The notes beneath the pieces were generated by a model. That model was given only the letters and a program-made list of their open reading frames with translations, ran no database searches and was not told the DNA's origin. The translations under genes were made by a program, and so were the position numbers. From positions 16,244-46,177 of the forward strand of contig NW_003151772.1 of NCBI RefSeq assembly GCF_000003605.2: a stretch of 29,934 bases of DNA. The letters run 5' to 3'. This DNA is from Saccoglossus kowalevskii. Lineage: Eukaryota; Hemichordata; Enteropneusta; Harrimaniidae. Every line of letters starts with the position of its first letter. Positions within the stretch are counted from its first letter, which is position 1. Positions 6,176-26,927 of the stretch are shown piece after piece.

Positions 6176-9100
6176 ATGAAGTATGTTAGTGTGGAAGACG
6201 GGGGCTGTTATGGTTGGCTTGTAGTTTTAGCTAGCCATATTATTCTGATGTTGATGGCAGGGTGTCAGTGTAGTATGGGAGTATTCCTAGTACTGTTTAT
6301 GGATTATTTTGGAGAAGGTGTTGGAAAGACTGTTATTGCACAGTCTGTGCAAGCTGGGTTAATGTTGTTTACAGGTAGGAGGCTTTGAAGTCATTTATCA
6401 CACATTCAAAATTACCAGGCGTCAATAGACGATTGGGTATATTGGTCGATCTTTTAATAGCACGTACAACATGTGGATCCCTCTCATGCGTGAACAAAAT
6501 TGGGTCTAGAAATATACAACCATATTGGATTGTTTTTTTTCCTTACTAGAGTGCAACCCGAACTACCGGTAATACTATTGTATTCGTTCATCAAAAATGA
6601 TAATCAGTTTGGTTTTGACAAAACAACTTTCAACAACAATTTTAATTTTTTTGAATTATTATTACAAAAATATGTCTACAGTAATATTATAAGGTCAATA
6701 AATTACCATGACTATTTTATTGACATATATAACATGGTGAGTTACACACTACAGAAACTAGGTGTTGGTGGTAAATGCTATAATGGGTCGTATATCACTC
6801 TACAGCAATACAAATTACAGTATTGAACAAGAAAGTGTTACCTCACACTACAATCCCGATTTGGGTATAAAGCAGGATTGTAATCTAAGGCAGTGGTTAT
6901 TTAGCACCTTTATGAATGATATTTGTGAGCAATAATGATAATTAAGATAACTAAGAATAATTACATTTTTATGCATATAATATATTACTTCTTCAAAGGA
7001 ATGGAATGTGTTGCAATAACAAATCACTGACATAGAAAAATAATTTGATGATTCTAAAGGTCAATATTAATAAATCGAAAGACAGTTTTCAACAAAAAGG
7101 ACAAGGTTAAATTCAACTGTCTGGGCAATATTTTTTAATCAAATGGCAAATTTAACTTTATTAAAGTAATAATCAAAACCATTTTATTATGGTGGGGGAG
7201 AATTCAATCCAATTCTTTGTAAATACGTATTCGGAGGTCATAAGTACAATGCAAATATAAATTACCAACACTTATACAAAGTTCCTCGTCTCGCTACTGT
7301 AAACAGGCGTATCATTTATTGTTGCTGTTGTTTACTGATGTTTTAGCACAATATAATGCAATATTTATTAAGTCTCTGTTTCCGCAGGTCCGCTGATTAG
7401 CATTTTAAATAATAAATATGGAACCAGACCATTAGTTGTTATTGGTGGAGTATTATCCAGTACTGGTATATTCTTAAGTGCATTTGTAAGCAGTGTGAAT
7501 GCACTAGTTATAACTTATGGAGTTATAGTTGGTATGAAATTACTATATATTTCAAATAATTGACTTATATTAATTAACTAATTAAGGTATATATAATAGT
7601 TTCACAACATACATCTAATGTATGTCAATTATGATAACTGATAAGAATATAGGTACATATTTTAGATATATACATTGCAGTTTAATATACGATGACCTTG
7701 TTCGACACAATTCGTTAATTTGTCACCTTTAAAACACGTGAATTATTGATGAAGGTTTTTTTTTCCGAACAGGATTGGCTTATGGTTTGGTTTTTGGACC
7801 GGGTATAGTGATTGTGGGAAGATATTTCCACAAACGACATGCATTCGCCAATGGAATTGTCTATGCTGGTTATGGTGTAGGTATAATGATATTTCCACCA
7901 CTTTGTCAAAAATTAATCGACACATATGGATGGAGAGGATCATTGATCGTCATGGCAGGAATTAATATGCATATTGTTGCATGTGCAATGATATTGAAAA
8001 AACCAACATATAATAGATGCGATGAACAGAATACCACAAGAGATATTGAACCATGGCCAGCCACCGAAAATGAAGGTGTGCAACCAGCGTTAGTCAATAA
8101 ATTACATGTGGATGACACTAATGCGCTATATGGTCCTGCCACACAACAAAACGGTGACCACGATATTACTGGTTGCAACGACAATGACACCTCAGATGAC
8201 ATTAAGTTAATGAATATTACTTACACACAACGTGTGAAAATGTTAATGCACAGAATGGCTTCCGATCTTTCGTTATACTTATTCTGGAAATCCTGGTTTC
8301 GAACCATGTGTCTTGTTGTACTACTTGTTGCAGTCAGTCAACTTATTATAATGGTTCATTTAGTTAACAGAGCAGTATCTGATGGAATAGCAGCAATCGA
8401 TTCTGCGTTTCTATTGACAATTATCGGGATATGTGAATTAATAGGAAGAGCAACCCACGGCTTGTTAATTGATTTGACTAGATTTTCTCCAATGTTTATT
8501 GCTGCCTGTTCGTGTGTTGTATGTGGAATATCGATAATTCTTCTTCTTTTTGCAAATAGCAACTATGTAGTATATGCTATCATAGCAGCAGTATACGGCC
8601 TATTTGACGGTGTTTTTGTGCCGCTAGTGGGAGCTGTGTCTATAAAGGCATGTATTGGGAGAGAACACGTGTCAAGTGCATTTGGTTGGTTTTTATTTCA
8701 TGTTGGTATTGGGTATACAATTGGACCGCCTATTGCGGGTGAGTATTGCAATTATAAGAAAACTACGGATTGTCAATATCCAATCGTCAAATAAATTTAG
8801 AACATAACATGATCAATAATAAATCTTGTCTTCAGTCAGAAAGCTTCACCAGATAGCCGTATGAATCAAAATCAAAGTCAGATTTTTGTATTTTCTAATT
8901 TAGTGATTGCATTCTATTGTCGTCGTCTTTGGGGTTAGAAAATGTTTACTCGTTGTTTCGTACTCGTTGTTTCAAGTCTGAGGATGTAATTTATCAAGAG
9001 AAATTAATTCTTGTAATAGTTAATTTGTTGTAATTGGATTAAGTATTTCATTCTGACCAATCAACAATATATCACACTATTGTATTACTATGTATATATA

Positions 9101-12467: not shown

Positions 12468-12644
12468 TCATGCAAGGGATAGGTCTTCTTTAAAGTTAAC
12501 TGTTGCAATTCTCATATGACTGTGCGTTTTAATGACATGCACACAACCACTTATCGACTGCAAATGATTATTTGTATGTCGCAGTACGTATGTCACTGCT
12601 GGGGATGGTCCTCCTCCATTAGTATTCATCCACACAGCTCCATT
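12468..12644 (-). CDS. Last exon: C-terminal half of UPA domain and stop
   Basis: Begins after a TTCAG acceptor (12646-12645) in phase 0 and gives 58 residues, starting NGAVWMNTNGGG and ending KEDLSLA. The stretch TYVLRHTNN...VHVIKTHSHMRIATVNF fits the last strands of a UNC5-type UPA domain, where UNC5 has a CTFTLER-like strand and ends in ...FSINF. The protein stops within a few residues of the UPA end, close to where the neighbouring plus-strand gene has its intron before the death-domain exon. Confidence 0.7.
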   Translation of the reverse strand, partial: NGAVWMNTNGGGPSPAVTYVLRHTNNHLQSISGCVHVIKTHSHMRIATVNFKEDLSLA

Positions 12645-15600
12645 CTGAATAGTGTGTAAAATGTCCAAAATCATATTATGAATTCACAGTTCCTCTAAAT
12701 CGCGATCTAGAGTGACAAAGCGTGTCTATGACGTAAAACCATTTAAAGCATTAAGATTTAGATCTGCTGTCGCTGCCAATGAAAATTGTGATTTTTACTG
12801 AATTCCATGTGACAAACTACTACACAACAAAACACTGCTGATTTCAGTAACATTGCGTCAACCCCTCTACGTCGCTTTGGCATAACAGACGCACTTCGGC
12901 ACTAGAGTTCGCGATTTATAGAAACGGGGTATTTGTAAACATACAAATCGAATAAATAAAATTGTAGCTGTTTGGCATGTTTTCCTATTTACATATACAT
13001 TCTTATGATACATTTTAGTCACAAAACTGTAGTCTTACCTTCATAGGTTCTCCATCGACTAGTTTCCATCCGGCATGATTTAGGTCACATAGTTCTATTG
13101 AATAATCTCCATCTGTCTTACTCAGTACAACTTTACATTCATCTCTGGATTTATAGCTTCCGATGCTGGTCTCCTTCAATGTCACCATCTGATTACATAA
13201 TGAGAAAATTACATTTTATTTTTTTTACTACTCAGATCTACAGGTCCTTTCAGAGTACATATATCGAAGCCCCAGCTGTTTTATGGGTTGACATGAGAAA
13301 TGCGGCACCACTAGATGGGCAGCACATATGACCAACATCATCCTAATATGGAGAGTAATTATTTCAAGTCAAATATCACATGATTGGCGGTGCGAGCAGT
13401 ATGCAATTAATTATTCGCACTGCTGATTAGGAAGTCGAGATAATCAAACCAACAACCTCAGACCTTGACCAGATATTCGACTTTTGGATAATGCATAAAA
13501 AGCTACACTAAAAATCACATGACACTTTGAAACGCCACACAGGACTGCATCACTCCACTAAATACTACCTGCACTGCACAACACAACATGACGCAGCACC
13601 ATATCACACTTGACTAGATTAGTGTATTAGTGAACAAATATTTATTCGTTATTACGCTAACTAGACTGCACTGAACTAGACTATCACCACATTCATGATC
13701 AGTAAATCACAATACAAAATCATAATTACCTCATTGTCTGCTGGCGTGTCTCTGGATAATCTTGCCCTGATCTTCATAAACTTTTGATTGACTCTAGTTA
13801 TAAATATATTAATAACATACATGCAGGAATCCACACTGCTAACCACACTGTACATCGCTAACTGGTTGATGAATGCTATACAATCGGTGCCTTGAGAGAT
13901 ACACAGTGTCTCTTTTCCTTCACTTGAATCGTGCCAGGCCTTGATTGGTTCATTTCACTCAAGCTCCTCCACAGCTTCAACGGAGCATTGTGTTCACTGT
14001 CAAGGCAATTTTTGAAGGAGAGCAGCACATGTTTCTGGAAACGAAACCCAGTTGGTCCACAGCGAACTATGGGTGTTAGTGCTGTCTCTCCAGGGCGCAT
14101 TCTTGGATACTCACTATCAATGTCAGAAATATATATGTAAAATTGTTGTGTTCCATCATCTTGAGAAAGAGCATCAGGAGGAATAAATAGATTAACGCCT
14201 GNNNNNNNNNNNNNNNNNNNNNNNNNNNNNNNNNNNNNNNNNNNNNNNNNNNNNNNNNNNNNNNNNNNNNNNNNNNNNNNNNNNNNNNNNNNNNNNNNNN
14301 NNNNNNNNNNNNNNNNNNNNNNNNNNNNNNNNNNNNNNNNNNNNNNNNNNNNNNNNNNNNNNNNNNNNNNNNNNNNNNNNNNNNNNNNNNNNNNNNNNNN
14401 NNNNNNNNNNNNNNNNNNNNNNNNNNNNNNNNNNNNNNNNNNNNNNNNNNNNNNNNNNNNNNNTGCTTTGTGCAGGTGACATTAGCAGTATAGGTTGGTC
14501 AGAGACAGAAGTTCCCTCAACATCAGATGTACTTATTTCACTATTGCCCTCTTTATCTATTGAATCGTGTATTCCCCTTCGTGGGCGTGTGTGTTTTCGT
14601 CTGCATTCTGGCGTTCTGATTACATCAGATATAACTCGAGTGGAAGGCTCTTCTGATGCATCATTACAGGCAAACTCTTGTGAAGACATCTGTCCTACAT
14701 CTCGTAATCTTTGGTATTTAGTTGTTAATCGATCGGTAATACAATTAACAAGCTTGTGAAACATTAGACCTATCATTATGATCAAGGGCACGAGAGCCAA
14801 TAAAATTTGACCCACTTCGATAATGTTCAGAATGTTAGTACCAGCAATACATTCTGATTCACCATAAGAATAGCAGAAGGCATCAACTACATTCAAAAGT
14901 CCAACTGCAACCAGAATAATGAAAGTGATTGATTGATACCATTGGAGTTTGTTACTGTTATACGGTATGCAGTAAGCATGGAGGAACAAGAGTCCAGCAC
15001 AAATGCTTACTAATATCAGAGTCCGGATGAATTCATTATGAAGAAAGATGTGACAGATGACAAGAATAAGTCTCACTGCCAGCATTACAGTTTCCCAGTG
15101 ACGAGTTACAAATGATCTTGGTGAGTAGTTTGATTGCAGAACAAAGAGCACACTAGATGCATTCAGTTGGTTGGTTGGTTGGTTGACTGTATGTATCTAC
15201 ACCTGTTATATCAACCATCTCAGTGTAAGAGTTGTCTTCAGAATCAGATTCGTTCATAGAATTAGGGTCTCTCTTCTTTTTATTACAACATCTGGATATT
15301 AGAGCATATATGCTGTATGGCAGTGGTAACATGCACATGACAGCAAAGAATTTAAACCCAAATTTCTCTTCCTTTATTTTCCACTGTGTCATTACAGGTA
15401 CAGCAATGAATGGAACAGTGAATATAAATGCAAAGATAACCGCAGAATACCACCATGGTCCTAAACAGCGTAGATTTCCGGAATAATACATTCGCAATTG
15501 ACTATTGATATTGACACAATCAAGCAACATAAATGTAACTCTTAGTATAGAGATATAACCCAGAATTATAGTGAGCGTAAATGCCCCAGCTATTCCGCTC

Positions 15601-18600
15601 TTTATATTCACACACTTGTTCCCATTTGAAGACTTCTTCTTCAACAATAGTTCCACACAAGTGAATATGAAATACAGGATGAGCTGTGCTGCAATAATTG
15701 GTAATAATACACATAGTTCCATGAATAATGTTTTGTCGATATAATTATCAAGAAACATCAGGCATGTGTCTTTGAAATCTGGAGATATTTTGAAACTGAA
15801 AAGATTTATAATGAATGATATATATTGTAATGCGGTGTATTTTATGTGTCTTGGGCTAGCAATAAGTGCAACGATTTGGTAGAAGATAAACAGAATCTTG
15901 ATGAAGCTAATAAGGTAAATATGATCTCCTGTCTTTTCTATGGTGCTGATATCACATGATTTGTTACTGTTTCTTGATGATGAGGAATCCTGTATGCTAC
16001 ACTCTCGATTGACTGTGTTCGAATCTAACATTTCTTCTGTTTCTTCAAATTCATTATTCACGTTTTTATTTCTCACCTTTTTATGACACATTCTATTTTT
16101 CAATATCCATTGTATATTGCATTTTACCTTCCATCTACATAAAATATAGAAGGCTACAGAAAACATGCATATAACAGCTACCAACAAGAACCAGAAGACA
16201 CTCGTGTTTTGCTCACAATTTTCAGTTGCAATGCATTCTGGGTCAACAATAGACTGGCTGAAACCATCCATGCAAGTTCCACACAGGATACCATTGCGAT
16301 GGCCGTTGCATGTCTGATAGCTATCACATGTATAACCTCGATTTCCATGACAGCAGTATCCAGGTGGACAAAGAATAAAGTCGAGTGTACTGTCATGTTG
16401 GTAGCCCCAGAAATTCGATTTTGCTTTCACAGCGGACGATGAGCAGTCTCCTCCAGGAGGACAATTGATGCAGTCAATTTCATTTGGATTTGATCCATTG
16501 CTGTAGCCTTGTTGTAGACTGTACTTGCCTGATTCACATGGCTGACACGTATAGATAAGGCTGTATTGATTTACATTAAATTGATCTGTCAATCTTATGT
16601 TGTATCCATGGTTACATACCACAGATGACGATGTATCCAGGGAGTAGTTAAATCTGAGCCGTGTTCAAGACGTTCACTTCATGTTGATTTGTTAACGCAC
16701 TGAAAACCGTGTTTACAGCTGTAAAACTCCCTTTAAAAACACTGTACACTAATTCGCCGCGACTCGCTAAAGTCTTTGTTGTTGTCAGGATGCATCTATC
16801 CAATCTCACCTCACCTTCTGCTGAATCCATGTAAATTGAACCACCAAGGAATGCAGCAGAGTTGTCTGAAAATGTACAGGATAAAATGTCCACTTTACCG
16901 CCATAGATATATATCCCTCCACCGAACGCACTTGGTCCAGATGCTTGATTTTCTGAGAATATCACGTTTTTGAATTGAAGAGTCGAGTTAGCAGACTCAA
17001 ACTGGGATAACACAGCGCCGCCATGAGAAGTTGCGATGTTTGCCACAAAATGAGTGTTCTCAAAATAAAACTGTATTGTCTTAGATTTAGTTGCATCCTT
17101 ACATATTGAGTATTTTCTGAGAGTGTTCGTATCGACATAGTTTGAAGGACTGTAGCTGGGGTCAGTCATCTCCCCAAATGAACTGTCGTTGAGGAATTTT
17201 AGTTCTTTATCGGATAATTCGCATTGTGCCTCATTTCCATTGTCTGTCTCTATGATACTAACACCTGCACCTCTTTTATATTTATTGTCCAAGAATAAGA
17301 TGTCTCTAAATATACCCGTAATATTTAATATTTTATCAATTTTGATATTCAGTGCACCTCCTGTATTGTGGCTGAATTCAGAGTTCATGATCGAAAGTTC
17401 AACAGAATCAATTGTCTGGTTTTTCTCATTAAGATGGATGTACAAACCCCCTTCATTATTTATGAATTTAGAATCAGAAATTATCACTTTGTATTTCATA
17501 TTACCCAGTGCTAACTTCTGAGAGTAACGAAAAGCGTAATTGGTATGTCTTCTATTCCGCATTCCTGTTGAGTTTTGTAAATTACAACGATGGACAACAA
17601 CCGATGTATCTTCCGTATTTATAGCGCCACCAACGTCGATGTTTTTTGAAAACCCGCCAGTGATGTGTAATCCAATCAAACTTACTTGCATTGGATTACG
17701 GGAGCGTCTCGTTTGTTTTGTACCATCAATGTCAATTACAGTGCACTTAGATCTTCCATCAATCGCCGCTGTTCCATTCACCCCCACAATATGAACAGAG
17801 TTTCGTATTTTTATTCCAGTATATTCATTGGTTTCTAGATCTCGTTCACACTCGTAATACGGTGACTGTTCCGTGTTTGTTCCATCCACGTGTATTATAG
17901 CACCATATTCTGCAAGTTGTACAGCGTGGTTAATTGTTTTGCACGGTGTTTGCAATGAACAACTCGTAGAGGTATCACTTCCTCTCACATTGGAAACATA
18001 CAACATTGTAGGGTTACTTTCAGGGCACCCTGTAAGCATATAATAACGAACAGCGATTCATAAAAATTGCAAACAGAAAAAAAAACATGATATAACAATT
18101 TCATGAGAGCACTAATATTCATTCGCTGTCATGTTCATTATTTTATTTGGATAAATGAAAATTAATATAAGTTGAATGTTGTGGAATTTAAATGTGAACA
18201 ATTGTCATAATGTGAATCAACGAGCCTTTTTTGTCACTATGTTTGAATTAACTTTTGATCCGATAAAGCTGGCAACTTAACGTCTACCCCCAACCATATA
18301 CAACCGAACAAAGGTGTGGATATAAGCCGTTGGTGGTGATGGGGGGAGGGTGTTGTCTGAGTCAATGTTAGTTCATAAAGAAATTCGTACAGACATTGAC
18401 TTTCGACATTAATTATTAAACTGCGTAACAAAAAGTCGTACATAGGAATTCATTGCAAGACATATGTGCTAAAGTTATGTTTTGTTGGTAATTAATTTGT
18501 CGTCCTAACTATACTTTACATTGTTTTCTGTCCTCTACTGTACGGAGTCACGATAGAATAACATTTCTTTATGACGAAATTATATTGTTTATATTTTTTT

Positions 18601-20021
18601 CATTTTCATTTTTTTTAATAAAGACAATAATCAAACACGTTTAAACGAGTTGGTGAGTAAGTGACACACGTTTATGATGGAAAATATTATTTATTTTAAT
18701 TGTTAATATGTTATTTTCTATTTATAATAAAAAGCTTCAGTGAAATCAGTCAAATAATAAATAAAGACAATAGTATGACGTATCACATATGTAGGTCAAC
18801 GTCAGATTCAGATTTGACATTACGAAAATGACCAGAAATAAAAAGTCACTGTACACAATGACAAAAAAAACATCCTCATCTAATTGAACTCAGGCAAAAA
18901 ATAAATACTGGCCTTATGAACATCATAAAATGTCTGACTGAATATAGTAATTATCAAGCACTGGCACCCCAGTTCTCTGTCATTTTTCCTGCGAAAACTC
19001 ATTATTGGAACGACACTATATCACTACATAAAGGCCGTCATGTTTTGGTACACACTTTAACTGCTTAGGTTTACTTCAAAATTAAGTTTGTGTAGTTTTC
19101 TCGACTTTAGCTATTTTCACCTGCTCGTCGACCAGCGTTCTACAGCAGCTTGCGCAGAGCCCATAGAAATACATGGTACAGCGGTGCGCGTCTTAGCAAC
19201 GTGGAACGTTCTGTTACGTTAAACCATGGAAGTACCTTCCATGGTTAAACCATGGAACTATAGTTCCATGGTTAAACCTATCATCCGCCACTGAATAGCG
19301 CCATCATTCGACGAGTTTTGTGATTTCATAATTTACGTTCATGCGAGGTCATGCGGGTATACCAAATATAACAGGTATTCTACGACACAATATGCACACT
19401 ATAAACGGAATTTACACAACTGATTACTATAGCAATACAGCCACATCGCATCAACGATGAATCTATCTTATCCAATCATGGCAAGCCAATCGAACGCTTT
19501 ACGGATTTAAGATACGCTGGCTGACATTGCAGTGTATTACTCGAATGCAACGTGTATGTGTGTACCACGATCTACATGCGTCATTCGTCAACAAGTTTAA
19601 ATTAATTTTATTATTCGAAAATCATAAACTTGCATTTAATTCTATTCTATTCAGTTATGAATCATGGGTAAATTCCACACTCCATATGTTGAATCACATC
19701 GTGAAGCCAATTCACGGCTGATAGTGTCGAGATGCCGCTAGCGCTTTGGTGAACATTGAAATCGATGCAAAATGGAACAAAAAACATCACCATCGTGTAA
19801 TTTATTCATGCTGTGAATGTTAACTTTAGGTTATGACACAGCGAAGTACATGTAGACACATTTATTATTTCGCAACTCAGCAAATTTAGGTCAAGGTTTT
19901 TTTTTTAAATTATTATTCACCAGAACGTCGCAAAGATAAAAGGGTATACGATTAACTCACCTCGAGATTGAAATAAAATAAGCACCACCAACCAAATTAA
20001 ACATGAACATCGAGATTTCAT
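12468..20021 (-). CDS. Beta-helix / Cys-rich / multi-pass membrane protein with intracellular ZU5-UPA; three frame breaks and a gap
   Basis: Whole-gene model. Exons on the minus strand: 20021-19961 (signal peptide), 18029-13730 (ectodomain, membrane region, tail, ZU5, start of UPA), 13188-13039 and 12644-12468 (rest of UPA, stop). Splice sites are GT-AG; the first intron is phase 1 and the last two are phase 0, and all join in frame. Domain order: signal peptide, right-handed beta-helix, cysteine-rich module, about ten TM segments, acidic/Ser-rich tail, gap, ZU5, UPA. The reading frame shifts near 16650-16665, near 15153-15186 and near 13890, so no intact product is encoded as assembled. Function unknown; a cell-surface receptor or sensor signalling through ZU5-UPA is the natural inference. 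Joining the ZU5 part to the membrane part crosses the N gap. It rests on strand, order, lack of a stop before the gap and lack of a start after it. It could instead be two adjacent genes. Confidence 0.65.
13039..13188 (-). CDS. Internal exon: central part of UPA domain
   Basis: A 50-codon exon with acceptor TAATCAG (to 13189) and donor GTAAGA (from 13038), phase 0 at both ends. It starts MVTLKETSIGSY, which lines up with the UNC5 UPA stretch VVQLEKQLGGQL, and continues VVLSKTDGDYSIELCDL, matching the strand pair before the W-K-S segment. It corresponds in position and phase to the 46-codon exon 24050-24187 of the divergent gene. Confidence 0.75.
13730..14201 (-). CDS. ZU5 domain and start of UPA, with one frame break
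   Basis: Begins inside the ZU5 domain at the gap edge with GVNLFIPPDALSQDDG and continues ALTPIVRCGPTGFRFQKHVLL, the core ZU5 signature. It then runs to a cysteine pair and QLAMYSVVS, which aligns with UNC5 ...C-(6)-C...EQLGRFALVG. UPA starts at about YVINIFITRVNQKF. The exon ends GAG|GTAATT (13730). The open frame from the left part hits TAG just after CVSLKAPIV, while the conserved continuation is in another frame: one base is missing or two are extra near 13889-13893. The His-Phe of self-cleaving ZU5 proteins is absent. Confidence 0.75.
14202..14463. other. Assembly gap (262 N)
   Basis: A continuous run of N inside the coding region of the minus-strand gene, between the cytoplasmic tail after the last TM segment and the middle of the ZU5 domain. 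It should hide the first part of ZU5 and possibly an intron. Because its length may be an estimate, reading frame across it cannot be judged. Confidence 1.
14464..15152 (-). CDS. C-terminal membrane segments and cytoplasmic tail
   Basis: Continuation of the membrane protein in a shifted frame. It begins VLFVLQSNYSPRSF, then HWETVMLAVRLILVICHIF and four hydrophobic stretches separated by short loops (HAYCIPYNSNKLQW, CYSYGESECIAG). The pattern WE-x(8)-R followed by closely packed helices is usual for the C-terminal membrane block of beta-helix/Cys-rich multi-pass proteins in invertebrates. The tail after FHKLVNCITDRL is hydrophilic, with basic TRPRRG and Ser/Glu-rich segments, and runs into the gap without a stop. 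The GTG at 15151 is not a real start; the segment belongs to the open frame upstream. Confidence 0.75.
15153..16664 (-). CDS. Cysteine-rich module and first membrane helices
   Basis: After the beta-helix comes a cysteine-rich module of GCC2/GCC3- or TNFR-like spacing: CQPCESGKYSL, CINCPPGGDC, NFWGYQ, CPPGYCCHG, and GILCGTCMDGFS. It is followed by about six hydrophobic helices beginning with VFWFLLVAVICMFSVAFYIL. A Ser/Asn-rich loop lies between the first and second helices. The frame is open from just downstream of a TGA at 16667-16665 and ends at TAG 15155-15153, directly after a CCAA repeat that makes the artificial ending QPTNQPTECI. The family's next conserved block resumes in the +1 frame a few bases later. 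The GTG at 16622 is not a genuine start. Confidence 0.8.
   Translation of the reverse strand, partial: TRLRFNYSLDTSSSVVCNHGYNIRLTDQFNVNQYSLIYTCQPCESGKYSLQQGYSNGSNPNEIDCINCPPGGDCSSSAVKAKSNFWGYQHDSTLDFILCPPGYCCHGNRGYTCDSYQTCNGHRNGILCGTCMDGFSQSIVDPECIATENCEQNTSVFWFLLVAVICMFSVAFYILCRWKVKCNIQWILKNRMCHKKVRNKNVNNEFEETEEMLDSNTVNRECSIQDSSSSRNSNKSCDISTIEKTGDHIYLISFIKILFIFYQIVALIASPRHIKYTALQYISFIINLFSFKISPDFKDTCLMFLDNYIDKTLFMELCVLLPIIAAQLILYFIFTCVELLLKKKSSNGNKCVNIKSGIAGAFTLTIILGYISILRVTFMLLDCVNINSQLRMYYSGNLRCLGPWWYSAVIFAFIFTVPFIAVPVMTQWKIKEEKFGFKFFAVMCMLPLPYSIYALISRCCNKKKRDPNSMNESDSEDNSYTEMVDITGVDTYSQPTNQPTECI
15166..15185. repeat. Tetranucleotide repeat (TTGG/CCAA) at a coding frame break
   Basis: Four full TTGG units plus flanking partial units on the plus strand, read as CCAA on the coding strand. 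It sits exactly where the open frame ends and the downstream frame must take over. Losing one four-base unit would keep the reading frame open across the junction. Confidence 0.9.
16648..18029 (-). CDS. Right-handed beta-helix (pectin-lyase-like) ectodomain
   Basis: About 460 residues following the TTACAG acceptor (18031-18030). It opens CPESNPTMLYVSNVRGSD and SCSLQTPCKTINHAVQLA, the usual start of extracellular parallel beta-helix proteins. It then shows repeated turns of the type GGAINTED, NTGGALNI, HGGAVLSQF, FGGGIYIYGG and GGSIYMDSA, each next to Asn/Ser-rich strands. Several N-glycosylation sequons (for example NGT, NST, NIT, NDS) fit a secreted or extracellular domain. The ATG at 18039 lies in the intron, so it is not the start. 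The frame ends at TAA 16650-16648 (...VNVLNTAQI), while the natural continuation LRFNYSLDTSSSVVC is in the next frame. Confidence 0.85.
18030..19960 (-). other. Intron 1 of the minus-strand membrane-protein gene
   Basis: Bounded by GTGAGT (19960 downward) and TTACAG (ending 18030). It splits a glycine codon (phase 1), and the two sides match exactly. It contains the palindrome cluster at 19222-19273 and otherwise AT-rich sequence with only short ORFs. Confidence 0.65.
19222..19273. repeat. Cluster of overlapping palindromes around four CCATGG cores
   Basis: AACCATGGAAG / TAC / CTTCCATGGTT (19222-19246) is followed directly by the perfect 26-bp palindrome at 19248-19273, whose half is AACCATGGAACTA. 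The inner arms also pair with each other (TTCCATGGTT-A-AACCATGGAA). Thus four copies of ACCATGG or its complement alternate in about 50 bp and can form alternative hairpins or cruciforms. It lies in intron 1 of the minus-strand gene. Confidence 0.95.
19961..20021 (-). CDS. Signal-peptide exon of the membrane-protein gene
   Basis: A short first coding exon not covered by any long ORF. ATG (20021-20019) opens MKSRCSC followed by the hydrophobic LIWLVVLILF and QSR, a textbook n- and h-region. It ends CGAG|GTGAGT with one base of a split codon, which matches the phase of the acceptor before the beta-helix exon (G + GG). No other exon with these properties was found in the 4.9 kb upstream of the beta-helix exon. 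Exon choice is inference from signal, donor and phase. Confidence 0.7.
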
Positions 20022-22849: not shown

Positions 22850-22937
22850 CTACTGCATTCGAAAGAGTCAAAGTGATACACGTTCTTTATAATAATCAAA
22901 ATTCCTGCCGATTTGCCTGTTAGTTTGTACCGTAATT

Positions 22938-25183
22938 ATGCCAATCAAGGATACGAAGCAGCATGTATCCCTACATCAACAACGAGGTCGGGTGGATAAG
23001 TACTCCGTCCGAGAGGGTGAACCTGGCTTACAAACAGGATTTAGTGATAATCACCACACCAGAAAACACCCATGTGTTCGTGACGTGAACGCCAAACAAC
23101 AGGCTCTGTATACCAGCGACTACAAATCAATGCGATCCGGAGCGGCGTTAGCCACTCCTATGAAATACTCAAATGTTTCTGCTGAGAAACACTTGAGCAA
23201 AAACAAGACTTCATCTAAATGCAAAGAAGACAAAACATCCACAAAAGACGAACATTTTGAAAACAGTTTGTTCAATCTTGATAGAAAAATTCGTAAGAAT
23301 GAAGATCGAAAAATAAACACCGTATTATACGAAAATCCTGTTTTTGCCGGAGGTATATTCAATCACGAAGGCGGGGTGCTATCTGTGGCAGGAGGTGCGG
23401 TAAAACTTCGAGTCACTCCAGGTGCGATTGCACGTAGCAAAGACCCACAGAAAATTTATTTATACCTTCCTCACAGGGAACAATTGCCAAACATAAAATT
23501 GGGTGGGTTTCCTCTGTCGCCCATGATACATTGCGGACAGAATGGAATGGCGTTCGAGAAACCGGTCCTGTTGTCTATAAAATCGGCCATCGACGGAAAT
23601 GTAAATTCATTCAAGGTGTTAAGAAGCGATACAAGTCCTGGTGAAAAAACACAATGGAACGTTATCGATGACGGCGGCGTGCACTGCCTGTGGAATAATG
23701 GTTACTGTACGGTAGCACTCACACACTTCACACTCTATACCGTTATTGGAATGCACAATGAATCTATCGTAAAGGGAGTATTTCGGGTACAAACATATAT
23801 CGATGATGGTGGAGGAAAAACACCGTGTATACGATTTAGAGTCAGAATATTTCCTGAAACACAGGCTGAAATGGAGGTAGGCAAAATTGTTTTCTGTTGT
23901 TCAATCAATCAATTCAGTTCTATAAATATCATATGACTAAATGACGAGTTTCGATTGGAATATAGCCAATACATACCAAAGTCATATAAAATAGCTAACT
24001 TGGCTGAAAAGATTTGAACCATTCTCTCGAATATTTTGTTAAAATGCAGATTGTTACAAATCGTGAAGCGGAACTTGGTGGCTGTTCAGTCGATCCATGG
24101 CAAAGAATATCAATAAATCAAAACAAAGGCGCAACCATTTCTCTGTCTAATTTTGTGGGGTGTTCACCAATGGAGGATATCGTTCAGGTACATGATGTTT
24201 ATGTTCATGTTTTCAAACATGCTACTACATGTATATATAATTTAATCGATAATCTAGAAGCATGCTTGGTTACAATCTGATTTTTCTATGACCCTTCATA
24301 TAATATTTATTTGTATTTTAGTTTGAATATGTCGATTTTTTGGTTTTTTCTTGCCGTTAATCAGTTTTTATAAAATCTCTCCCAGTCGCCTCAAACTAAA
24401 TGGTAAAAATAAAAATTGGAGCCTCATACCTACATCGGATTTTAATCAGATTGGCTTGTATACATCAGAACCTCGTTAGTAAAAATAGCAAGGTATTTGA
24501 ACGATTTGCCATTGCATATTAACATTCATTATAAACAGGTTGTGTAAATCTGACGTAATTTGGTGGCACAAAGTGCCAGGTTTGGAAGGTTTGTGTCTTC
24601 CTAAACTATTAAATTGTTTGACCACAGAAGATAAGCGCTTTGGGGATTGTGTTGAATTAACCATGTATATTAAACGTATTCGAATTATGCCTTCAGGATC
24701 GTAAAAGTGAAACTTTATAATGTAACCCCACTGTAAAGCTTATATACGTGTCAAATAGGAACATCTTGGTAATCTCCACACTGTGCCAACTAGCACCACG
24801 CCATCCATTTGACATTGCGTTTGAACATTTTCCGTATTGTTGATTGTTGCGGGATTGATTGTTAAGAGATGAAGTGAAAATGTTTTTTTTTCATGCAATG
24901 TATCATTAGACTGTGATAATGACGATACCAAAACAAATTTGAAACATCATAAGGTAATACACAATAATTTGTTATGTTTGATCATTATAAAAAAATATAC
25001 ATTTCATTTCAATTTCAACTCAATAATTGACATTTTTTTCAAATGTATTTTGATGTTCCAAAGCTCGAGCATTAAAATTTTTCTTCTAAATTTCTAGTTC
25101 TTTTTAAATGTCTTCAATATGTTAATGGCCATTTATATACGTCTACCAGATATCAGGGGGGTAAGGGAATTAAAACTATATTT

Positions 25184-25223
<40 letters not shown>

Positions 25224-26927
25224 GGTGTAGTGAGTTGTTATACATATGTCTTGGCCACTTCTCTGTAATATTTATGTGGATTATAACTGATAACTTATTT
25301 AAAAAAATATGTATGACAAACCATTGACATATTACACACTTTTACTGATATTTTGACTAATGTAGATGACATATTTTCATAGTTTGCTGCTATATTTACA
25401 TCTTTCATCTGTTTTTCTTTTTTAATTTCTCTTTATCCGCAGAAACTGAGTTTATTTGAAATATGTGAGTGTATGATTTGTTAGATTTAGTAGAACATGG
25501 TAGAAGTATGATGTATTGATCATACTTTTTCACTGATCAATTTCAATGGTTTTAAATCTCCTCAGTATAAACAATGACATATATGTTCGTGAAATATTAT
25601 AGTTACGTCATAATGATTGCCAACCTCTGAGATACATCAGTGTTAAATTACTGCTCACAAACCCAGTTGTTTTGTTTGTAAGTTTAAATTTAGTTGACCA
25701 GTATTTAGCTCATGATTAATGAGTACGACGCATGGCATAATATGTGTGTGTTACAGGTTACAGACCCAATTGTTATGGTTTACACGTTTAAATTAAGTTT
25801 AACATTACTTTTGGTTAATATTCTCGATGCATGGTGACATTTACGCATGTTACAAAATTGTATTAGTTTGTACATTTACTATACCAGTTACTATACTAAT
25901 ACAATACGTGCGATTATGCACAATGCATATTAAAACCAGTGCATGTCGTTACCTTGATAAAGGAATATCAAATGCCTTGTTTTCAATCTACGAGTGTAAT
26001 TTGTTGTAGGATGTTCGGGCTAAGCATATTTGGATGATTAAGCCTTCGGGAGTGGTATGTCCATTCAAACTGAAGAGAAGTATCCAAGGTGGAGGACAAG
26101 CTAGAATTCAAGTAACAATAACAGTGACTGAGTCCGAAAATGTCGACAATAAAGTACAGGTGCAGGTTAACAGTGTCTTACCTGTTCATTGTGATTCGCA
26201 GGTAAGGAAATGTCTTTCAACAAATCGTTGTTAAGTGTCTGTTGCTGCTGAGGAATATGATATGAAATTTTGAACAGAGAATTCAGCTAAGTAATTATGG
26301 CAAATAAAAGTGATCGATTCGAACAATATGATATTAGTTCAATAGCACTATTGTATTTTTAAATATGTATGATTATCACCCAATCTTCTAATTGTAGTTT
26401 TGTGTCTTATTTTTCAGTTTCTGTCTACACAATCTGATATTTTCACTACCCGGCGAATGCGTTGTGTTTCAAATGTGACATCAGCGCAGTTAGTCTCGAC
26501 TGATCGTGCTTTCCGCCACAGTCTTCCCGAATTCCGTCGTCCTTACTCACCTGTATTCGCGATGGTTATGCCCTATGAGCTATACGTTAGTTTGTGCGTC
26601 CAACTCGACATCAAACAATGCAACGGCAGAGATGCACGATACTTAGCGGAAAATTTTGGTATTGGTTTTGAAACTATACAATACTGTACACAGAATGTGT
26701 CCGAACAGCAACGGAGCTTAACGTCTGCATTGCTGGACTTCTTCCTAGAAAGAGGACTTCAGAATGGATTCGGTAAAGAGAAAATCCTCACTGAGCTTAG
26801 AGATCGATTATTAGCAATCGACCTTGAACAAGCAGCTGCATTGGTTACCAAACATCTGCAATGTAAGCTGATGTCTGATGATTCCGGGATGGGGGATAGT
26901 TTAGGTGAGCTTCGTCCTACAACTTGA
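22938..26927 (+). CDS. UNC5CL-like ZU5-UPA-death domain protein, 4 exons, 592 aa
   Basis: Exons 22938-23876, 24050-24187, 26010-26201 and 26418-26927, all joined by phase-0 GT-AG introns. An in-frame TAA 43 bp upstream supports the ATG at 22938. Residues 1-130 are Lys/Ser/Asn-rich and look disordered. ZU5 spans about 138-272 (GGVLSV...VTPGAI...LSPMIHCGQNGMAFEKPVLL). It ends in ALTHFTLYTVIG, with His263-Phe264-Thr265 where PIDD1-type proteins self-cleave. UPA spans about 277-420 (REAELGG, then HIWMIKPSG...CPFKLKRS). The death-like domain spans about 474-566 (LCVQLDIKQ...GRDARYLAENFGI...LTSALLDFFL). A C-terminal DSGMGDS lies at 578-584. No signal peptide or membrane segment is visible, so it is probably cytosolic, unlike UNC5 receptors and unlike membrane-anchored UNC5CL. 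By family it is an adaptor for death-domain signalling; the exact partner is unknown. Confidence 0.88.
25188..25221. repeat. (AT)17 microsatellite in intron 2 of the ZU5-UPA-death gene
   Basis: Thirty-four bases of uninterrupted alternating AT inside the long intron 24188-26009. Confidence 0.95.

Follow-up and report, generated by a model that had tools for sequence, protein, structure and literature searches.

A 29,934-nucleotide stretch of the Saccoglossus kowalevskii genome (contig NW_003151772.1; C4189:16244-46177 in our genome set of 572 Mb and 4,830 contigs), hereafter the window, carries on its minus strand a gene that would encode a beta-helix ectodomain, a cysteine-rich module, a multi-pass membrane block and an intracellular ZU5-UPA module. 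A preliminary description of the window had read these elements in this order, and all of them were found in place, from a signal-peptide-like exon through to UPA (Table 1). Two Pfam profiles pass their cut-offs: Chlam_PMP over the beta-helix frame (E 3.6e-6, 27.1 bits against a cut-off of 20.6) and PF00791 over the ZU5 piece (51.4 bits against 21). The splice phases also match, as had been claimed: the start of the beta-helix exon, at 18029, is in phase 1 and fits the phase-1 donor of exon 1, and the stretches 13936-13730, 13188-13039 and 12644-12468 join in phase 0 and reach a stop. The cytoplasmic tail runs into an assembly gap of 262 N which, judged by a paralogue described below, would contain the remaining linker and the start of ZU5.

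Table 1. Features of the beta-helix/ZU5-UPA gene, in gene order (positions in the window).
Feature	Position	Strand	Basis
Exon 1, signal-peptide-like start MKSRCSCLIWLVVLILFQSR	20021-19961	-	GT donor, phase 1
Beta-helix ectodomain, Pmp-type repeats, first frame of exon 2	16648..18029	-	Pfam Chlam_PMP; similarity to paralogue A
Frame change 1, beta-helix/Cys-rich frames	16648..16664	-	overlap of open reading frames, 17 bases
Cys-rich module, separating the beta-helix from the first membrane segment	16215..16616	-	coordinates computed from open reading frame positions
First part of membrane block, with 6 segments of hydropathy above 1.2	15294..16199	-	hydropathy
Frame change 2, CAAC repeat in loop preceding last four segments	15153..15196	-	overlap of open reading frames, 44 bases
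Membrane block, last four hydrophobic segments	14759..15097	-	hydropathy
Cytoplasmic tail as far as the gap, frame open	14464..14758	-	open reading frame
Assembly gap, 262 N	14202..14463	.	run of N
ZU5 domain, profile positions 18-95 of 97	13966..14199	-	PF00791 51.4 bits, E 1.3e-13
Frame change 3, ZU5/UPA frames	13876..13954	-	overlap of open reading frames, 79 bases
ZU5 end and UPA start, phase-0 donor	13730..13936	-	similarity to paralogue A
UPA exon, phase 0 to 0	13039..13188	-	open reading frame and tail alignment
Last exon, UPA end and stop	12468..12644	-	no death domain found

An unbroken paralogue carries the same domain order

A search of the genome with the Cys-rich/membrane piece of the window matched three places, the window itself and two on contig C3983. 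The first of these two, paralogue A (C3983:19883-24193), is a single open frame of 1,437 residues, with no gap, that runs from the beta-helix through the Cys-rich module, the membrane block and the linker to ZU5 and the start of UPA. Two further exons with GT/AG splice sites complete the UPA, giving 1,540 amino acids and a stop when counted from the beta-helix exon, and the two 3' introns are in phase 0 and stand at the same two places as in the window copy. The second, copy B (C3983:3611-7438), has the same domain order, interrupted by several stops and one frame change. The window beta-helix is 28% identical to residues 24-377 of paralogue A (E 9e-29); over the Cys-rich and membrane part, identity to paralogue A is 27% for the window and 36% for copy B, and over the tails 41% and 64%, respectively. 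Fourteen cysteines of the Cys-rich module are invariant across the three copies, and the ZU5 of paralogue A matches PF00791 with 54 bits.

The architecture is more than a chance arrangement of neighbouring frames, because the open frame of paralogue A carries the same order without a gap, and we are highly confident that this domain order is real. It might be objected that two adjacent genes, one for a beta-helix membrane protein and a separate one for ZU5-UPA, meet across the gap, and the window alone, with its 262 N, is compatible with this. However, paralogue A holds both halves in one open frame, which rejects the two-gene reading for that copy, and the window ZU5 groups with the ZU5 of both paralogues, which makes it unlikely for the window; we consider it extremely improbable. 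A stop codon or a new start hidden in the gap, an outcome that the preliminary description had named as refuting, is likewise answered for the family by the ungapped frame of paralogue A.

The grouping of the ZU5 domains comes from a tree of 23 rows, comprising 21 of the at least 32 ZU5 matches of the genome, UNC5B and ZO-1; of the other 11 matches, C4344 and C3326 gave no alignment to the query and nine did not enter the comparison. The three copies form one side of a branch that is found in 94% of 200 bootstrap trees and has a support of 93/81, just under the program's own mark of 95/80. Since the three ZU5 domains lie on one branch, a single fusion followed by duplication is likely, and would be the simplest reading of the three copies.

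The two C3983 copies have a further feature in common. Galaxin-like repeat exons (PF24748) lie on the minus strand at L014:4847-5269 (E 1.4e-14) and C3983:9387-9974 (E 1.8e-13). They stand upstream of the beta-helix region of these copies, about 0.5 kb and 1.9 kb away, respectively, and on the same strand. The first of them ends in phase 1, fitting the beta-helix exon of paralogue A, and the galaxin-like exons may form the N-terminus of the two C3983 proteins. One such exon, compared with the window by tblastn, gave no match at E 1. A pattern scan of viral contigs matched 59 stretches, none of which encoded a relative.

The window copy has three frame changes

The consistent order read by the preliminary description holds, but the window copy is not one frame: it contains three frame changes, unreported until now, near 16.65, 15.17 and 13.95 kb. 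The open reading frames involved are 16648-18057, 15153-16664 and 14464-15196, then a ZU5 frame ending at 13876 and a UPA frame starting at 13954. Introns are an unlikely explanation: (i), at the first site the spacing between the flanking matches is about equal in the window and in paralogue A, (ii), at the third site the flanking matches overlap and, (iii), paralogue A has no intron at any of the three. The second site lies in a variable loop, where an intron could in principle be present if it were very short.

With three frame changes, the window copy is thus misassembled or a pseudogene; it may be dead, and is doubtful as a working gene. That it is a pseudogene, in a family that is mostly decaying, is a realistic possibility which we place somewhat short of even; this would be compatible with the function proposed below, which rests on paralogue A. 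The lesions of copy B point the same way as the three frame changes, and in the window a sulfotransferase domain (profile positions 2-222 of 226) and a Major Facilitator piece (93-347 of 347) each read in a single frame, which slightly favours a real lesion in the beta-helix gene. On the other hand, similarity to paralogue A shows no further break beyond the three, the 14 cysteines are kept in every copy and paralogue A is unbroken. Moreover, none of the breaks is more than about 2.2 kb from the assembly gap, and one falls in a short tandem repeat; assembly errors are frequent in such places.

The tail is a probable UNC5-type ZU5-UPA module

A profile of the three tails, compared with solved structures, matched UNC5B (PDB 3g5b) first (E 5.2e-10), with profile positions 5-249 of 282 aligned to UNC5B 6-260, so that the match spans both ZU5 and UPA. 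ZO-1 came next (E 2.4e-9 and 8.8e-9); the remaining 25 matches listed were all to ribonuclease H chains, with E values of at least 0.05, and we take them as chance. The position of self-cleavage reads TLS, TLS and QLA in the three copies. In UNC5b, too, a leucine is reported where CARD8 requires phenylalanine (PMC3210808). Because the phenylalanine of the cleavage site is replaced by leucine as in UNC5b, self-cleavage of the tail is not expected. The genes end after UPA, and none of the 55 Death matches found genome-wide lies on C3983 or C4189. The preliminary comparison with UNC5 would accordingly hold for ZU5 and UPA only, as no death domain was found.

At the other 20 ZU5 places examined, the self-cleavage position reads HFT in nine and otherwise in three (C2267, C3326 and C350), and is uncovered or partly covered in eight. 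The genome as a whole has at least 32 ZU5 matches, and nine of the 23 places examined read HFT rather than HF/S.

The membrane block and the ectodomain

With hydrophobic segments defined by a hydropathy above 1.2, the window pieces contain ten, and paralogue A, downstream of its Cys-rich module, contains 11, of which the two weakest score 1.31 and 1.32. This threshold is also exceeded by two stretches in the ectodomain of paralogue A. The earlier estimate of about ten transmembrane helices agrees with the window, but paralogue A has one segment more, and a protein with its N-terminus outside and its C-terminus inside needs an odd number. We also ran a crude, energy-based topology calculation for 1-13 spans at three charge weights, with the N-terminus taken to be outside. 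The best totals were obtained at 5 or 7 spans, and in the window each odd number of spans from 5 to 11 scored higher than the even numbers on either side of it, whichever of the three weights was used. The block thus has 10-11 hydrophobic segments, and the calculation does not settle the number of spans or the orientation.

No Pfam family matched the membrane block above cut-off in the window pieces or paralogue A, and its one match among PDB sequences (E 2.1) is at chance level. A transporter or channel, to which ZU5-UPA merely adds a scaffold-binding tail, might be suspected from a number of segments above the seven of a G-protein-coupled receptor (GPCR) and from the failure of any known receptor family to match. 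However, no transporter or channel family matches either, and seven spans would fit the topology calculation; we regard this reading as quite improbable.

For the ectodomain, a low-confidence single-sequence model of the beta-helix is nearly all beta, and a PDB fold search with it gave a best E of 0.089; among the 50 of 112 matches that were listed, most are beta-solenoids, judged by title. The Chlam_PMP match of paralogue A (14.4 bits) is below cut-off. Of the checks proposed in the preliminary description, the Pfam scans thus recovered Chlam_PMP and ZU5 but left the UPA model and the membrane block unmatched, and structure prediction returned only models of low confidence.

Comparison with known proteins

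Among the closest parallels are the UNC5 netrin receptors (UNC5B, PDB 3g5b), likewise membrane proteins with ZU5 followed by UPA and with Leu rather than Phe at the cleavage-site position. UNC-5 of C. elegans is described as a single-span membrane protein that has immunoglobulin and TSP1 repeats as well as a death domain (PMC10464613), whereas here we find a beta-helix, a Cys-rich module and 10-11 hydrophobic segments; in the window pieces and paralogue A, Pfam gave no immunoglobulin or TSP1 ectodomain match at E 1, and no death domain was found. A precedent for a large beta-helix-type ectodomain on a multi-pass membrane protein is provided by class C GPCRs of gut fungi, reported to have pectin-lyase or beta-helix ectodomains (PMC5168858). 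They differ in being fungal and in their seven class C spans, and the accessible part of that report makes no mention of ZU5; here, no Pfam seven-transmembrane model matched, and the membrane block of the window pieces and paralogue A matched no GPCR family in Pfam or among PDB sequences.

ZO-1 and ankyrins, which are cytoplasmic scaffolds, share the ZU5 domain, and among solved structures ZO-1 ranks first when paralogue A is searched alone and second when the three-tail profile is used; scanned with Pfam, the window pieces and paralogue A showed no PDZ, SH3, GK or ankyrin repeats. PIDD1 and the FIIND of NLRP1/CARD8, cytosolic proteins, have the ZU5-UPA module in common with the tails. They are reported to undergo autoproteolysis at HF/S or SF/S and to carry death or CARD domains (PMC3210808), whereas here there is no cleavage motif (TLS, TLS, QLA) and no death or CARD domain was found. 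Pmp proteins of the Chlamydia type share the Pmp repeats, for which the window beta-helix passes the Chlam_PMP cut-off, and Pfam gave no match to an autotransporter family in the window pieces or paralogue A. In invertebrates, ZU5 has also been reported in combination with NACHT (PMC12909245) and with TRADD-N (PMC8195603). By the features tested, the protein would fall outside the UNC5, PIDD1, ankyrin and GPCR families. Our literature search, over sources available in part, found no description of a beta-helix/multi-pass/ZU5-UPA architecture; predicted-protein databases lay outside that search and may list the protein uncommented.

Other genes of the window and the mitochondrial contig

The sulfotransferase domain mentioned above lies on the plus strand at 353-1153 of the window (PF19798, E 3.2e-11), and the Major Facilitator transporter piece, also on the plus strand, at 7742-8794 (PF07690, E 7e-24).

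The genome set includes a mitochondrial contig of 17,037 bases in which COX1 is on the opposite strand to COX2, ND2 precedes ND1 and tRNA-Lys has the anticodon TTT. The mitochondrial genes, with boundaries set in this analysis, contain 48 AAA codons and no AGG, and in COX1, judged by eye, ATA stands at positions where isoleucine is usual. Beyond COX2 (C4830:16243-16876), repeated open reading frames reveal tandem copies with a step of 191 bases, perhaps the control region. Reported for the mitochondrial DNA of the acorn worm S. kowalevskii (PMC3121625) are an inverted COX1, a moved ND1 or ND2, a UUU anticodon that reads AAA as lysine, AUA coding for isoleucine and AGG without an assignment. 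The mitochondrial contig therefore fits S. kowalevskii or a close relative; the lancelet Asymmetron, considered as an alternative source, was rejected on account of its different published gene order (PMC2034537).

Proposed function

We propose, as the probable explanation, that the three copies belong to a family of multi-pass membrane proteins with a beta-helix outside and an uncleaved ZU5-UPA module of the UNC5 type inside. The protein, made of a signal peptide, right-handed beta-helix with Pmp-type repeats, Cys-rich module, membrane block, long cytoplasmic linker and C-terminal ZU5-UPA, would likely stand at the cell surface, where the beta-helix and the Cys-rich stalk would bind a carbohydrate or matrix surface. 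The membrane block would then cluster or change shape, and inside the cell ZU5-UPA, uncleaved, would serve as a docking platform for partners. The simplest such partners would be proteins with ZU5, UPA and a death domain, which would supply the death domain in trans. The location at the surface, the orientation, the type of ligand and the recruitment of partners are all things that we infer.

A candidate for such a partner may be found in the window itself. Head to head with the beta-helix gene, on the plus strand, lie 22896-23936 and 26373-26927, which we assumed to be one gene; it has a ZU5 domain (PF00791, E 4.7e-12) with HFT at the self-cleavage position, and its exon 26373-26927 gives a weak death-domain-like match (E 0.15). 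It is possible that this neighbour is a partner of the beta-helix gene.

Several observations weigh against the proposed explanation. The architecture was read from the DNA of one species, and with three frame changes in the window and several stops in copy B, only paralogue A is unbroken; moreover, its start exon was not identified. Paralogue A by itself matches the ZU5 of ZO-1 (E 1.3e-7) better than UNC5B (9.5e-5), and the Pfam UPA model gave no match, so that the UPA assignment rests on the UNC5B alignment and on the position in the gene. In the topology calculation paralogue A prefers 5 or 7 spans; 9 spans score above 8 at just one charge weight, the highest, and 11 score below 10 at every weight. 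The single-sequence models have low confidence scores (mean pLDDT, the predicted local distance difference test, of 39.4 for the beta-helix and 42.4 for the Cys-rich/membrane part). Finally, the weak death-like exon of the head-to-head neighbour went undetected in the Death search as well, and a divergent death domain could escape such a search.

These proteins may also serve adhesion or anchoring rather than signalling, the beta-helix sticking to matrix or mucus while ZU5-UPA ties the membrane block to the cortex. Ankyrins and ZO-1 are ZU5-bearing scaffolds that tie membrane proteins to the cell cortex, and galaxins are matrix proteins. An anchor would fit the rank of ZO-1 among the solved matches (best for paralogue A alone, second for the three-tail profile), the failure to find a death domain or an autocleavage motif, and the galaxin-like repeat exons upstream of both C3983 copies. 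However, the three-tail profile matches UNC5B over ZU5 and UPA slightly above ZO-1 (5.2e-10 vs 2.4e-9), and 10-11 hydrophobic segments exceed the needs of an anchor; we therefore consider anchoring rather unlikely. Within the explanation that we prefer, a multi-pass family with an uncleaved UNC5-type module, a receptor or sensor role is possible, although we would not put it at even chances. It is bolder to suggest a new class of animal multi-pass receptor, in which a beta-helix on a membrane block without known relatives would signal through an uncleaved ZU5-UPA that borrows its death domain in trans, perhaps from the head-to-head neighbour (22.9-26.9 kb); we offer this as an unlikely but definite proposal.

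ZU5-UPA is known on single-span guidance receptors, on cytoskeletal scaffolds and on proteins of the death and inflammasome types, and here it stands on a multi-pass beta-helix protein. If this protein is a receptor, the inner module of the UNC5 type would have been reused behind a quite different sensor. Paralogue A provides a concrete, unbroken gene with which the function of ZU5-UPA without a death domain can be tested.

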